37,428 bases of DNA from Planctomycetales bacterium. Its GTDB lineage: Bacteria > Planctomycetota > Phycisphaerae > SM23-33. The DNA lies in contig JAUWNJ010000031.1 of NCBI GenBank assembly GCA_030612725.1, forward strand, positions 1 to 37,428, written 5' to 3'. Positions 13,810 through 22,175 of the stretch are shown here, one piece after another (positions within the stretch are counted from its first letter, which is position 1; each line of letters begins with the position of its first letter). Position numbers and translations under genes: made by a program. Under the pieces are notes generated by a model that saw only the letters and a list, made by a program, of their open reading frames with translations, was not told the origin of the DNA and did no database searches.

Positions 13810-13843
13810 CAATCCTAATAACTCAAACTGACCGATTTCAATA

Positions 13844-14052
13844 AGCCCGAAGGGCTGGCGGATGGTAGCCGGAGGCATAAGCCTCCGGAAAAGGGGATGT
13901 TAGGAAATAGCCCCGAAGGGGCGTCGGAGATGTAGCGATTACCCAAGAGACCGCGTTTTCTCTCCCTCGTCCCTTCGGGACTGACTCTTCTGACACCTTA
14001 CTTACCGTGGGCTTACGCCCACGGCTACTGTCCGATGTCCCTTCGGGGCTGA
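13844..14052. repeat. Array of short GC-rich hairpins
   Basis: Between two minus-strand genes, a chain of perfect hairpins: AGCCC-GAA-GGGCT (13844-13856), CCGGAGGC-ATAA-GCCTCCGG (13869-13888), GCCCC-GAA-GGGGC (13910-13922), GTCCC-TTC-GGGAC (13969-13981), CCGTGGGC-TTAC-GCCCACGG (14005-14024) and a final CCC-TTC-GGGG near 14040. Connecting pieces such as GATGTAGC and GATGGTAGCC recur. The layout matches the REP-like hairpin clusters common in environmental bacterial genomes. No gene is credible here. Confidence 0.75.
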
Positions 14053-17023: not shown

Positions 17024-17659
17024 TCAGTTCCTTGTTTTATTTCCCGCCAATGTTCCGACGATTAATCCTGCGGCGTGAGCGACGCCGACTGTTGCGATGC
17101 CGTCGGGCAGACCGATGCCGGGAATCAGGCCTGCGCCGGCCACCTCGAATGCGATTTTGACGGCCACCACAACGAGCAGACTTATACATGTAATTCGTGT
17201 CAGCCGGCCCGCTTCAACAACCAGTGTTACCAGGACCCACCCGAGCAGGGCGTAGTTCACACCTGACAGGCCTCGATAGATAGCGATGTCGCCAGCCCCG
17301 AAATCAACCGTCAGTCCGACCGCTGCGAACGAGGCTGCCAGCATAGCGAATAACCGATACGGGCGGCCTCGTCCCAGCCAGCACAGTGCCACGAATGCGG
17401 CCAAGTCCGCTGCCAGGTGAGACCAGGACCAGTGGGTCAGGTGGCAGGTCAGCACCCGCCAGACCTGCCCGTCCTGGACGGCATGACGGTCGAACTGAAG
17501 CATTGCCTGCGCCGCAGGGAAGAACTGCACCAGGACTATCGCCAGAACCACCGCGACGGGCAGGGCGTCGGCGGGGCTGAATACGCCCCGCCCCGCCCGC
17601 GTCGCCACGGCGGCCCCGGCGACTCGACCTCTTACGATGTTGACGGTTTCCGCCTGCAC
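17024..17659 (-). CDS. Rhombosortase-like rhomboid serine protease
   Basis: 211 aa with GTG start 17659, supported by AAGGA 7 bases upstream. It overlaps the end of the VIT-VWA gene by 28 bases. Rhomboid proteases cut within membrane helices with a Ser-His dyad. Here Ser is S132 in YRGLSGVNYALLG and His is H195 in GVAHAAGL; HLTHWSWSHLAADL (73-86) matches the membrane helix 2 region. Small size, the short core without extra domains and the YRGLSG motif fit rhombosortase (RrtA), which processes proteins with a GlyGly-CTERM tail, rather than GlpG. The overlapping upstream gene encodes a protein with such a tail and is the likely substrate. Rhomboid membership is strong; the rhombosortase subfamily is likely but would need an HMM search. 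Confidence 0.82.
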   Translation of the reverse strand: MQAETVNIVRGRVAGAAVATRAGRGVFSPADALPVAVVLAIVLVQFFPAAQAMLQFDRHAVQDGQVWRVLTCHLTHWSWSHLAADLAAFVALCWLGRGRPYRLFAMLAASFAAVGLTVDFGAGDIAIYRGLSGVNYALLGWVLVTLVVEAGRLTRITCISLLVVVAVKIAFEVAGAGLIPGIGLPDGIATVGVAHAAGLIVGTLAGNKTRN

Positions 17660-19836
17660 GTCTGTTCCTTTCTACGTCGAAGAACTGCCATTGCAGCCAA
17701 CACGCCGATGACCATCAGTGTAATCAGTCCGACCGGCCCGCCACCGCTGCTGGGAAAGCCCAGGGAGAAGCCGCCGCCGGAAGACGATCTACCGCCACAG
17801 GCCAATCCTGGGTTCTCGATGGTCGTTTCATAGCAGACACCATCGGGCATCGGTACTGCTACGGGCACCAATCTGGGCCGGCCTCCGAAGGCTGTCGGCG
17901 TCTCGTCAATTGCCACGAAGGAGGTGTACTTGCTCATCAGCGAATATTCCAACGCCAGTTCGGTAATCTCGTCAGCCATTGTCTGGTTGCTTCCGCTGCC
18001 GATCTTGTCCAGTTCCAGTTGCTTTATGCGCCGGCGAGCCCAGATGCTCGGAAGCGGAGAGGAATCCTCCGTTGGTCCGGGGAAAGTGAACGTTATCTTT
18101 GTCCCGCTGGGTTCTTTTCCGATTCGGCCAAGGATTTCGATGGTCGCCTCGCCTCCTTTGCGATACCGCCCATGCACGTACACCGGCATACCGGCGTACA
18201 GGTCGGGTACGCACGCAGGCAAACAGTCAAAGACCTCCACACCGGTGATCTTCACTTTTGCGTCGGTCAGCACCGGTTTTTCAATCCGTTTTGCAAAGCG
18301 ATTGATGACCTCCTCGGGTTTGTCCTTCAGCAGGATGACTTCGAAGAAACCCCGTCCAAGGAAGGCCATTCGGTCAAGCAGGTAGCGGTTGACACTTGAC
18401 CCGATGCCGAACGTAAAGAACCGCGCCGAACCGACGTTGCGTTTGATTTCCTCGAATATCGCCTCTTCGTCCCCGATGTAACCGTCGGTAAGGAAGACGA
18501 TCATCCTCATGTGGCTTTCGGGAATCTGTTTGCCCAAGGCCGCCCGGACGCCCTTGAGCATCTCCGTACCGCCAGCGGCTCGCAGGTTTTTGACATAATT
18601 GATACCGGCTCGAATGTTTTCATCGTCGGCGTCAACCGGGTCCGGTCGGAAGGATGAAACGTCGTTGCTGAATACATAGATGTTGAACCGGTCGGTAGGC
18701 TTCAGACCTTTGAGCAACTTGACGGCAGCCTTCTTAGCCAAGTCAATCGGCTTGCCGCTCATAGAACCTGATGTGTCCATCACACAGATAATCTCCCGCG
18801 GACGGATCTGGTCGTCGGCGGGCGCTTTGGGCGGATGGATGATCATCGTGAAGTATCCGCTCTTGTCGTTGGCGTGCGCCAGGATGCCGATTTCAGGCTG
18901 GTCGCCCGCGACGGCGATATTCAGAACGAAATCCTTGTTGGGAATCGCATCCTCGCGACCCAGCATGACGACGGCATCAGATTCACCATCGCGTTTAATC
19001 GTTACGGCGTGGGCGCGCGAAGTAATCTTTTGGATCGGCACACCGGCCTCGATATCTACCGATATGCTGATGTCAAAACCGCAGCGCCGCCCCGGCGGGA
19101 TGACCGGCGGGGTAATCCGCGAAGCGTCGGGGACGCGGTCGGTATCGGGCAGCCGCCCATTACCTCTCCGCATCGGGCGACCTCTTTCGTCTCGAAGCGG
19201 CTTACCCGGTATGTACCTCGGACCAACCACCATCGGAAAGACAACCTCGTACGCCCCGTCTTTGTAAGGAAGCGTCTGGACGTAGCGAATGACTACGTGG
19301 ATGGTTTCATTCGGGCCGATGTTGGCCACTGATTGTGTGAAGATGTTAGGTCTTTCCTGCTTCAGCAGACTGGCGCGTTTGCCCTGATCGCGGGCTTTTT
19401 CGTATTTCAGACGGGCCGACTCGCGCCGGTCAATCTTTCCGCGAATGACACGTTTGCCTATCCGCATCTCCGTAGCGTTAATGGCTGAATCGTGAGGCAG
19501 GGGAAAGACGTACTCTGCCTCAATCGGTCGGGACAGCGGATTGGAAAATTCCTGCGTAACCGTTACCTCGGCTACGAAGCCCCGTACTTTAATTTTCACG
19601 TCGGTATGCTTCAACGGCGCGACGGACGGAACCTCTTTTTTGAACAGCCGCTTTGGCGCTTGCAGGTCGGCGTTTTTAATCTCCAGACGACCCTGGCTCA
19701 CCGGCTTCCAGGTGGTTTTGGCCGACAGCGGCACGGATGTCGTCAGCAGCACTGTCGCTATCAGGGCGACCGCCCATACCGGACGAATCAGCCTCCGCCT
19801 TATCAATGCCTTGTTCGCTTGCTTCTTTCGGTTCAT
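17632..19836 (-). CDS. VIT and von Willebrand A domain surface protein with GlyGly-CTERM-like tail
   Basis: 734 aa from ATG 19836, which has AAAGGAG 8 bases upstream. A basic N-terminus and hydrophobic segment (PVWAVALIATVLLTTSVPLSA) form a signal peptide with cleavage after about residue 39. A VIT domain (about 45-165) shows VAEVTVTQEFSNPL, IEAEYVFPLPHDSAI and LLKQERPNIFTQSVANI. A VWA domain (about 345-520) has an intact MIDAS: DTSGSMSG near 352, GGTEM, and FLTDGYIGDE. The C-terminus is Gly/Ser-rich, then SSGGGPVGLITLMVIG, a hydrophobic helix, and RRRKEQ: the layout of GlyGly-CTERM sorting tails (Gly run, helix, Arg cluster). Likely exported, then cut and anchored or released by the rhomboid protease of the overlapping downstream gene. 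Ligand unknown; VIT-VWA proteins often mediate metal-dependent protein contacts. Confidence 0.9.
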   Translation of the reverse strand: MNRKKQANKALIRRRLIRPVWAVALIATVLLTTSVPLSAKTTWKPVSQGRLEIKNADLQAPKRLFKKEVPSVAPLKHTDVKIKVRGFVAEVTVTQEFSNPLSRPIEAEYVFPLPHDSAINATEMRIGKRVIRGKIDRRESARLKYEKARDQGKRASLLKQERPNIFTQSVANIGPNETIHVVIRYVQTLPYKDGAYEVVFPMVVGPRYIPGKPLRDERGRPMRRGNGRLPDTDRVPDASRITPPVIPPGRRCGFDISISVDIEAGVPIQKITSRAHAVTIKRDGESDAVVMLGREDAIPNKDFVLNIAVAGDQPEIGILAHANDKSGYFTMIIHPPKAPADDQIRPREIICVMDTSGSMSGKPIDLAKKAAVKLLKGLKPTDRFNIYVFSNDVSSFRPDPVDADDENIRAGINYVKNLRAAGGTEMLKGVRAALGKQIPESHMRMIVFLTDGYIGDEEAIFEEIKRNVGSARFFTFGIGSSVNRYLLDRMAFLGRGFFEVILLKDKPEEVINRFAKRIEKPVLTDAKVKITGVEVFDCLPACVPDLYAGMPVYVHGRYRKGGEATIEILGRIGKEPSGTKITFTFPGPTEDSSPLPSIWARRRIKQLELDKIGSGSNQTMADEITELALEYSLMSKYTSFVAIDETPTAFGGRPRLVPVAVPMPDGVCYETTIENPGLACGGRSSSGGGFSLGFPSSGGGPVGLITLMVIGVLAAMAVLRRRKEQTCRRKPSTS

Positions 19837-20029
19837 AAGTTGTGCTCCTTTTGAGTGCGCGCAGACCTTCCCTGTGCGCATCGCCTGTGGTTTTTCACGC
19901 GAGCTTCTTTGTGATTCCCGCCGCCCTACGCCGGGCGGTACTCTGCGTGTTTAACTACGCCGCTTTCCAGTGCCGGCACACATGGGTGCTTCACCGCGGC
20001 AGTTGTATCTAAAGCATCTGACATAATGG

Positions 20030-20097
20030 CCACAGAGACGCAAAGAATGAATAAAATCAAAAAATTCCTGCCTTATTTTTCTCATCTCTGCGTCCTC
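20030..20097. repeat. Inverted repeat with GACGCARAG arms
   Basis: GAGACGCAAAGAATGA (from 20035) and its imperfect inverse TCATCTCTGCGTC (ending 20097) flank an AT-rich centre. More related text (GCCGCAGGCGG, ACCGCAGAGCC) lies just beyond, inside the 3' end of the neighbouring gene. It looks like a dispersed intergenic element that has become the last codons of that gene. 19837-20029 shows no gene. Confidence 0.5.
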
Positions 20098-21452
20098 CCC
20101 TTGGGACGGCGAACAGCCGCCTGCGGCTCTGCGGTCCAATGTTTTGTTAAAAAGGCCTTTGGCGGAGTCGTTTTGCTGATTTTCAGTTTCTTATGGCGGT
20201 CAATGGTTGCCATTAACTTCCCATCCGGAGAGGGCGTACCGTTCAGTTGCCAGAAGTGGCTTCCCGTGCAATCGGCAGCGTATATTCTCCCGATTCCGTT
20301 TTTATCTTTGCCCACGGCACAGATGCAGCCGCCCAGGAGGTGGCGTTTGAAAAAAACGGATTCTGGGCCGAAACGTTGCGTAACCTTTTCTCCAATGTCC
20401 AGGACCTGCCACGGGTGCAGGGATATCAGGAGGTATCGGTGGTGGTAGTTAAATCCTGGCGGCGCCTCCAAGCCTTTCCATTCGGGACCTTCTCGTACCA
20501 AATACCAGAAGAAGAGGTATCCGCCTTCGTACGCCCAGGATACATCACCAATCCCTATGTCATTTCCAAACTGTGTGACGAATTGCTTTGTGAAATCCTC
20601 GACCCGACCTGTGGCTGAATCTACCAAGAGAAATTCGAGTTTTTGTTGCCCCATTTTTTCGCTGATACACATAACCGCCGAACCGTCCGGCTTCCAAGCG
20701 ATGCCTTCGGGATAGCAGTTTAACTGTCCGAAAGCCCGTACTGTTCCTGTGGCGACATCGAGAAATTTGAAAGGCCCTCCGTGGTATCGACTTTTAAAGA
20801 CGACGTATCGCCCACGCGGCGACCAGATTTCCAGCGGGTAACTATTAACCAGAAAGTCCACCCCGGGCTTGACGCTCATTTCCCGATGGATTGCCACGCG
20901 AGCATCCGGCGAATCAGAAATTTTCTGCCTCCAGAAGGTCCTGTCGGTAATGCCCTCGTGTTTTCCATGTAAGTTGGCGTGTGCGACGTATCCGATCTCG
21001 TTGTTACTGAGCCAAACGAAACTGCTTACGATTTCGTCGGGTCGGCTGAAACCCCGAAGTTTTCCCGAATATAAGTTGATAACCGACAGCTTCCACGGAA
21101 CGATGATTGCCAGATGCCGAGAATCCGGGGAGAACTCGAAGGGCGTTGGGACGGAGATGTATCCGGCCCATTCCATGCCCACCGATCCGACACGAACAGA
21201 TTTCAGGACATCGGGCGTGTCCACACCGCACCATTTAATGCTTATGGTCCGTGATAGTGTCCTGCCGTCCAACCACGGTTCATTCCACTCATCCAACCAT
21301 ATGTAGGCTACCTTTGAAGAGTTGGGCGAGAACTTGATTTCGCGCGGGCCGCTACTTGGAAGCACGCACCCATCGAGTGCCGCGGCCAGGCAGAGCAGCA
21401 GGCCCGTGACGGGTGTGAGCGAATGAAAATTCCTTATCTTCATCTTTGCCAT
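20082..21452 (-). CDS. Predicted lipoprotein with TolB/WD40-like beta-propeller repeats
   Basis: 456 aa from ATG 21452, with GGGAG 7 bases upstream. The signal peptide (GLLLCLAAALDGC) ends in a Cys that could be lipidated, though LDGC is not an ideal lipobox. Repeated motifs of the type FSPDSRHLAII, WSPRGRYVVFKS, WKPDGSAVMCI and PSPDGKLMATI are spaced about 50-90 residues apart. This is typical of TolB-like or WD40-like propellers that mediate protein contacts in the envelope. The last 15 residues (AEPQAAVRRPKGRTQR) are rich in Arg and fall in repeat-derived DNA, so the native C-terminus may have been replaced. The start is 22 bases after the stop of the LexA-HUH gene, so both probably share the promoter at 22147-22175. 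Confidence 0.75.
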   Translation of the reverse strand: MAKMKIRNFHSLTPVTGLLLCLAAALDGCVLPSSGPREIKFSPNSSKVAYIWLDEWNEPWLDGRTLSRTISIKWCGVDTPDVLKSVRVGSVGMEWAGYISVPTPFEFSPDSRHLAIIVPWKLSVINLYSGKLRGFSRPDEIVSSFVWLSNNEIGYVAHANLHGKHEGITDRTFWRQKISDSPDARVAIHREMSVKPGVDFLVNSYPLEIWSPRGRYVVFKSRYHGGPFKFLDVATGTVRAFGQLNCYPEGIAWKPDGSAVMCISEKMGQQKLEFLLVDSATGRVEDFTKQFVTQFGNDIGIGDVSWAYEGGYLFFWYLVREGPEWKGLEAPPGFNYHHRYLLISLHPWQVLDIGEKVTQRFGPESVFFKRHLLGGCICAVGKDKNGIGRIYAADCTGSHFWQLNGTPSPDGKLMATIDRHKKLKISKTTPPKAFLTKHWTAEPQAAVRRPKGRTQR

Positions 21453-21474
21453 GCGTTTCTCCCTGTCGGCTTTA

Positions 21475-22116
21475 CTATTTCGTTTCCTGTTCATCCAGCA
21501 TTTGCTTGATGAGTTCATCGAGGATCGCCAGGTCGGTCGTTACCACGTAGCCACGGTGCCAGAGTTCCTTGTTGGGAAAATGCTTCGCGTGGCGACGCCG
21601 GGTAAAGTTAGCCATTCGCTTGAATCGTCTAACAACCTGCTCCGGCGAATGGTTGGGCCAGACCTCAACGATTACCCGAACGTGGTCCGGGCGGATATCC
21701 TTCTCCAGCAGTTTCCATCCGTGCTCGATACATTCCTGCTCAATGGCCTCTTCAATGAGTTTTTTCGCCCGACCGGTCAGGATTTTCCTGCGCTGCGACG
21801 TCGCCCACGCCAGGCCATAGACCACCCAGCAGGCAACGCCCTCATCGGTGTGTGCGATATCGTGCAGTTTTCCGCGTAACCTGCTCAAGACTGACGGACT
21901 GTGGAGGATGCGAATCGAGCGGGCCTTGTCGGGGTCTTTGGTGATGTAGCCCTTCTTTTCCAGGGCTGCGAGGTGTCCACGGACGGCGTTGATATTGGCG
22001 ATACCGGCCGCTAGGCTGATCTCTCGCAGCGTCGGCGGGAAGCCGTGCCCGGCTGAATACTCCTCAATATGCCCCAATACCTTCTTCTGCTGATCTGTCA
22101 ACGGCTTGGTAGTCAT
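21475..22116 (-). CDS. LexA-type DNA-binding domain fused to inactivated IS200/TnpA-like HUH domain
   Basis: 213 aa from ATG 22116 (AAAGGA 7 bases upstream). Residues 1-72 match the winged-helix N-terminal domain of LexA: LTDQQKKVLGHIEEY, GFPPTLREISLAAGIANINAV, GHLAALEKKGYI and a KARSIRIL end. The S24 autopeptidase that normally follows is absent. Instead residues about 95-210 align by eye with Y1 transposases of the IS200/IS605 and REP-associated type: YGLAWATSQRRKILTG, IRPDHVRVIVEVWP, SPEQVVRRFKRMANFT, ELWHRGYVVTT. The HUH pair is H145-V-R147, so the second His is Arg. The position of the nucleophilic Tyr (VVKQYIENQ in ISHp608) reads LIKQMLDEQ with Met206. Both changes predict no strand cleavage. 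Probably a domesticated, dimeric, hairpin-binding regulator. It likely controls itself and the lipoprotein gene downstream through the palindrome in its promoter. The LexA half is very secure; the TnpA-like half is strong but made by eye. Confidence 0.85.
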   Translation of the reverse strand: MTTKPLTDQQKKVLGHIEEYSAGHGFPPTLREISLAAGIANINAVRGHLAALEKKGYITKDPDKARSIRILHSPSVLSRLRGKLHDIAHTDEGVACWVVYGLAWATSQRRKILTGRAKKLIEEAIEQECIEHGWKLLEKDIRPDHVRVIVEVWPNHSPEQVVRRFKRMANFTRRRHAKHFPNKELWHRGYVVTTDLAILDELIKQMLDEQETK

Positions 22117-22146
22117 AGTGTTTCCTTTATCACTGCTATTATGTAC

Positions 22147-22175
22147 AGTGTACATATGTACACTTATCGTGTCAA
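22147..22175 (-). promoter_or_regulatory. Promoter with overlapping 18-bp palindromic operator
   Basis: On the minus strand a perfect -35 TTGACA (22170-22175), a 17-base spacer and TACACT as -10 (22147-22152). The perfect palindrome AGTGTACATATGTACACT (22147-22164) covers the -10 box and half the spacer. A further TGTACA at 22142-22147 gives three TGTACA hexamers in 21 bases. The centre GTACATATGTAC differs from the Gram-positive SOS box GAACATATGTTC by one symmetrical change. A repressor here would block polymerase, so autorepression by the adjacent LexA-HUH protein is the simplest reading. TACATATGTA is also the BlaI/MecI/CopY-type core, but no such gene is in the window. Confidence 0.82.

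Follow-up and report, generated by a model that had tools for sequence, protein, structure and literature searches.

We find that two overlapping genes of a planctomycete very probably form a dedicated rhombosortase system with a chimeric substrate, a VIT-VWA protein that would be processed by the neighbouring rhomboid and anchored in the envelope. This reading is built on four computed results, namely the family membership of the enzyme, the uniqueness of the sorting tail in the genome, the conserved pairing of the two genes and the chimeric structure of the substrate. To our knowledge, experimental work on rhombosortases has been done almost exclusively in Vibrio. Adjacent rhombosortase pairs with one target are already known as a kind, with planctomycete and verrucomicrobial examples among them (Haft and Varghese 2011, PMC3237569, whose Table 3 includes Rhodopirellula baltica and Opitutus terrae). 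New here are the extent of such systems in the Planctomycetota and related phyla, an active site with a residue other than His at position Ser+4, and a natural swap of the substrate body.

Results and Discussion

The window, by which we mean the whole stretch of 37,428 nucleotides that was analysed, belongs to a planctomycete genome of 3.16 Mb in 65 contigs that is 96% complete. Both open reading frames of the pair are present on the minus strand, as are all features of the pair given below. The VIT-VWA gene (17632..19836, with an alternative upstream ATG at 19881) encodes 734 amino acids and is matched by Pfam VIT and VWA_3 and, just below its cut-off, by NCBIfam TIGR03788. Its VIT domain covers residues 75-185 (19282..19614; Pfam 119 bits), and its VWA domain residues 348-499 (18340..18795; Pfam VWA_3, 79 bits). 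The rhomboid gene (17024..17659, 211 aa) begins with a GTG inside the end of the VIT-VWA gene, just as an earlier note on this DNA had described, and the two genes share the 28 bases 17632..17659. An overlap of the same length is found in genome G025, which carries the rhombosortase nearest to that of the window (75% amino acid identity over 175 columns). When 90 distinct pairs were compared, the exact 28-base overlap was confined to these two. About a third of the pairs (32 of 90) overlap; four bases is the commonest length, with 16 cases, and the spacing varies. Upstream of the GTG, the Shine-Dalgarno-like stretch AGAAAGGAA (17665..17673), read from the sequence, falls inside the tail codons for R-K-E and may serve the rhomboid. 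Its AGAAAGG is kept in G025, and the GTG start is conserved. This arrangement would fit coupled translation, and a coupling of the rhomboid to the VIT-VWA gene via the overlap is plausible. A consensus scan found no sigma-70 promoter.

The product of the downstream gene contains a Pfam Rhomboid domain and reaches 95 bits against the rhombosortase model TIGR03902 (NCBIfam cut-off 84), while the GlpG model TIGR04239 gives 30.6 bits against a cut-off of 250. The proposal that the rhomboid is a rhombosortase was thereby borne out; indeed, all 38 aligned relatives match TIGR03902. An AlphaFold2 model (pLDDT 89) adopts the rhomboid fold and matches GlpG structures. By profile alignment to structures, Ser132 (17264..17266, in GLSGVNY) falls on the GLSG serine and His195 (17075..17077, in VAHAAG) on the AHxxG histidine of the catalytic pair of solved GlpG; both residues had been named in the earlier note. 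The protein hence combines the rhomboid fold with the Ser-His dyad expected of a rhombosortase. At Ser+4, virtually all rhombosortases of the 2011 set have His (SGMLH; Haft and Varghese, PMC3237569), whereas the window rhomboid has Tyr (SGVNY), as in GlpG. In related planctomycete loci the position is mostly Ser (SGxDS), with His in just two loci of the model-based scan; Ser+4 counts were taken from this set alone because the pattern scan demanded [DN][SY] after SG, which biases its residue frequencies. A site once thought diagnostic holds a variable residue in these phyla. We also considered a relation between Ser+4 and an acidic residue at the start of the tail helix, with Tyr or His solely beside non-acidic tails, and rejected it: it amounts to three changes on the tree and is not significant, and the automatic tail parse is imperfect. 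The G025 rhombosortase has an in-frame insertion of ~42 codons (L057 3914-4039) that is absent from the window protein.

The tail of the VIT-VWA protein reads ...SSGGGPVGLITLMVIGVLAAMAVLRRRKEQTCRRKPSTS. This C-terminal sorting tail (residues 676-734; 17635..17811) consists of a Gly/Ser linker, GGGPVG, a hydrophobic helix, RRRK and a short end. The GGGPVG signature (residues 698-703; 17728..17745) marks the predicted cleavage region, the position being set by analogy with VesB (PMC11389362, PMC6219818). Among 37 aligned VIT-VWA proteins, G698 and G700 are invariant and G699 is kept in at least 90%. The basic cluster RRRK occupies residues 720-723 (17668..17679) in the sequence. Gly motif, helix and basic cluster are thus all present in a protein that is exported according to a signal peptide judged by eye. 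The earlier note had called the tail GlyGly-CTERM-like, which is right for this tripartite architecture; the GlyGly-CTERM model TIGR03501 itself (cut-off 15.5 bits) gave no match to the tail. The related model TIGR03867 matches seven of the 37 related VIT-VWA proteins, weakly. The helix is rich in Val, Ile and Met, unlike the Leu-rich helix of proteobacterial GlyGly-CTERM. MYXO-CTERM tails have a Cys in the signature motif, whereas GGGPVG contains none; a Cys is present upstream of it, in the linker. Against TIGR03788, the model for targets of the marine proteobacterial sortase, the VIT-VWA protein scores 538.3 bits, just below the cut-off of 551.65; its tail contains no LPXTG and its neighbour is a rhomboid.

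The window rhomboid is the sole protein over the rhombosortase cut-off in its genome, which also encodes other rhomboids. A profile made from sixteen such tails singles out the window tail as the only one of its type in the genome (E 9.5e-15), and the eight weaker matches that were read are PEP-CTERM-like C-termini. Two exosortases (G000:C63:2781-3560 and G000:C23:32036-32845) and several PEP-CTERM proteins are encoded as well, the latter presumably being served by the former. A second VIT-VWA protein of the genome has no tail. With one tail adjoining one rhombosortase in a genome of this completeness, a one-substrate system at the window is well supported. The dedicated system that had been proposed therefore stands: the search for GlyGly-CTERM proteins elsewhere in the genome, many of which would make the pairing non-specific, returned no second such tail.

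We propose that the signal peptide would export the VIT-VWA protein and that the C-terminal helix would park it in the inner membrane. The downstream gene of the overlapping pair would supply the rhombosortase, which would cut the helix at its Gly-rich start, around Gly698-Gly700 by prediction; a phosphoethanolamine-type lipid would then probably be attached to the C-terminus so created. Both the cut and the lipid anchor are predicted by analogy with VesB, which is cut by RssP at its Gly motif and then receives a glycerophosphoethanolamine-type modification (PMC6219818, PMC11389362). The end product would be an envelope-anchored or surface-displayed VIT-VWA protein. In this genome the enzyme would serve a single substrate, while other tailed proteins would use PEP-CTERM and exosortases.

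The strongest competing view is that the rhomboid only sheds the VIT-VWA protein and does not sort it to a lipid anchor. In V. cholerae, cleavage of VesB by GlpG gives a soluble protein and cleavage by RssP a surface protein (PMC11389362), and the change at Ser+4 could affect what becomes of the acyl-enzyme. Because the enzyme belongs to the rhombosortase family and the tail architecture resembles the sorting case, we regard mere shedding as rather unlikely, though it deserves serious attention, and favour processing followed by anchoring.

The substrate itself is composed of two parts of different origin. At the DNA level, the window and the syntenic locus of G025 (L057) are 83% identical in the lexA-like gene upstream, 79.6% in the 5' segment comprising the upstream region and the start of the signal-peptide coding sequence (19760..19954), and 73.5-76% in the tail and the rhomboid. 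From 19760 to 17747, no significant match to the G025 DNA was obtained, and the two VIT-VWA proteins share 25% amino acid identity. The body in between (17812..19760), which has no DNA match to syntenic G025, ends at YETTIEN (residues 669-675) and is 43-45% identical at the amino acid level to the VIT-VWA proteins of G009, G010 and G022. Its family occurs in 57 of the 347 genomes of the class, with tail-less VIT-VWA members at 42-46% amino acid identity. Most of the closest homologues stop at YETTVQN or similar and others bear a different C-terminal extension; among the body homologues examined, neither a sorting tail nor a nearby rhombosortase was found. In the window protein YETTIEN leads directly into the tail region, so that the natural end of the family coincides with the joint.

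The trees of the two parts point the same way. In the body tree the window protein stands with the tail-less G009, G010 and G022 proteins and a group with VEW tails (100/100), and the AU test rejects its union with G025 (p about 1e-84). The rhomboid tree unites the window with G025 (96/94) and rejects a placement beside those rhomboids that accompany the tailed relatives of the body (p 8.7e-5). Because the other type of body is found in each of G025, G031, G034 and G018, the state of the window is most likely the derived one. As judged from these comparisons, the signal peptide, the tail and the protease gene appear to be resident in an operon shared with relatives, and the VIT-VWA body was most likely replaced from a different, normally tail-less VIT-VWA family.

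It is unlikely that there was no swap and that the body instead diverged very fast, or that the joint is a misassembly. The body branch is long and the joint is seen in this one genome only, the chimera coming from a single assembly. Nevertheless, the body is much closer to a separate family (42-46% identity) than to G025 (25%), a grouping with the G025 body is the one that the AU test rejects, and the family ends where the joint lies. Furthermore, an open reading frame runs through both joints, and the body has a GC3 of 0.67, similar to the neighbouring genes; a misassembly that keeps the frame at both joints is thus unlikely.

With a body swap as the preferred reading, we think it probable that the tail and the overlapping rhombosortase gene form a self-contained display cassette. 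Recombination between the end of the signal peptide and the end preceding the tail would have brought in a tail-less VIT-VWA body and so added a client to a dedicated intramembrane sorting enzyme that also has a non-canonical Tyr in its active site. The natural swap speaks for the tail alone being what makes a protein a client. Tail and protease behave as a portable module, and the window and G025 together offer a ready natural pair in which the specificity for the tail can be studied with two unrelated bodies. At L070, L072, L074, L082 and L088, a further lineage of VIT-VWA bodies, akin to that of the window, occurs together with VEW-type tails and SGVDS rhomboids; here a body of this type may have become associated with a tail on another occasion.

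A model-based scan detected a rhombosortase over the cut-off in 31 of 392 Planctomycetota genomes, and 30 rhombosortase-model loci (the window and 29 others) form our locus set. A VIT-VWA gene lies directly upstream on the same strand at 24 of the 30. At one further locus the tail is seen and the remainder is lost at the contig edge, and at another the VIT-VWA gene is one gene away, giving 26 of 30 with a tailed VIT-VWA protein beside the enzyme or one gene away (one by its tail alone). At three loci (L032, L035 and L042) the rhombotarget lipoprotein TIGR04179 is the partner in place of VIT-VWA. The tail model matches 21 of the 392 genomes, exactly once in each, and 20 of these tails adjoin a rhombosortase-like gene or lie within about 1.3 kb of one, a co-occurrence count that is partly circular because the model was partly built from tails beside rhombosortases; for the last tail the two are on separate contigs, and the rhomboid lies at the edge of its own. 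When named genomes were scanned with a sequence pattern, 80 loci were obtained, from Planctomycetota, Verrucomicrobiota, Lentisphaerota, Kiritimatiellota and a few other groups. Overall, a VIT-VWA partner is upstream in 104 of the 116 loci collected, some places having been fetched twice. The pair, whose conservation the earlier note had asked to be checked, is hence conserved: a VIT-VWA protein is the partner at most rhombosortase loci of planctomycetes, which is not what a chance neighbourhood would give. In the Planctomycetota the usual job of a rhombosortase appears to be serving one VIT-VWA protein, and Verrucomicrobiota, Lentisphaerota and Kiritimatiellota have related loci. Within the family of the window the enzyme is found in 5 of 35 genomes, and the three other genomes of its genus are without the system, which shows that it is dispensable.

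In the rhomboid tree, the window enzyme groups with VIT-VWA-linked rhomboids and apart from both GlpG and the other rhomboids of its genome, so that the grouping with GlpG-type proteases that the earlier note had considered was not observed; support for the root split is moderate (86/80), and proteobacterial rhombosortases are absent from the trees, the plasmid search for them having returned none. A general GlpG-like housekeeping protease that stands beside a tail-anchored VIT-VWA protein by chance is very improbable despite the GlpG-like Tyr at Ser+4 and the weak GlpG match, given that the GlpG score is far below its cut-off and the rhombosortase score over its own, that the adjacency is conserved across Planctomycetota and other PVC phyla, and that other rhomboids are available in the genome for general duty.

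The dedicated rhombosortase system of the window resembles several known ones. With the dedicated pairs of PMC3237569 it has in common a TIGR03902 rhomboid, one target, adjacent genes and a tail of Gly motif, helix and basic cluster; it differs in that Ser+4 is Tyr instead of His, the tail stays below the TIGR03501 cut-off, the genes overlap and the body is chimeric. The same paper notes VIT-VWA proteins with GlyGly, LPXTG or PEP tails. Vibrio cholerae RssP and VesB (PMC6219818, PMC11389362) likewise combine a rhombosortase with a C-terminal helix led by a Gly motif, the cutting being predicted in the window; V. cholerae has several rhombosortase substrates, whereas the window has one, encoded by an overlapping gene. 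The marine proteobacterial sortase TIGR03784 and its target TIGR03788 use the same substrate family with a dedicated one-substrate enzyme next door, but that enzyme is a sortase acting with LPXTG, while the window has an intramembrane rhomboid and no LPXTG. The VIT protein TIGR04477 of the XrtN system and the Verrucomicrobium PEP-CTERM VIT-VWA protein are also VIT-domain proteins with a sorting-enzyme tail; their enzyme is an exosortase, that of the window a rhombosortase. Finally, the rhombotarget lipoprotein TIGR04179 is another target adjoining a rhombosortase, from a family unrelated to the VIT-VWA protein of the window.

Other features of the window were noted. The lexA-like gene upstream of the pair (21475-22155, minus strand) encodes a fusion of two domains, a LexA DNA-binding domain and a Y1 transposase domain of IS200-like type, and is present in one copy in the genome. 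The expected HUH motif reads HVR, so that the fusion looks catalytically dead. In G025 the gene is conserved and likewise precedes the pair (83% DNA identity), and a match near the pair occurs in G018 (69%). Between it and the VIT-VWA gene lies an open reading frame for a lipoprotein-like protein of 478 aa (20082-21518, minus strand) that has no Pfam match and is missing from the corresponding place in G025. Two matches to the Acido-Lenti-1 RNA, both over the Rfam gathering score, are located at 13843-13888 (minus strand) and 14005-14050 (plus strand).
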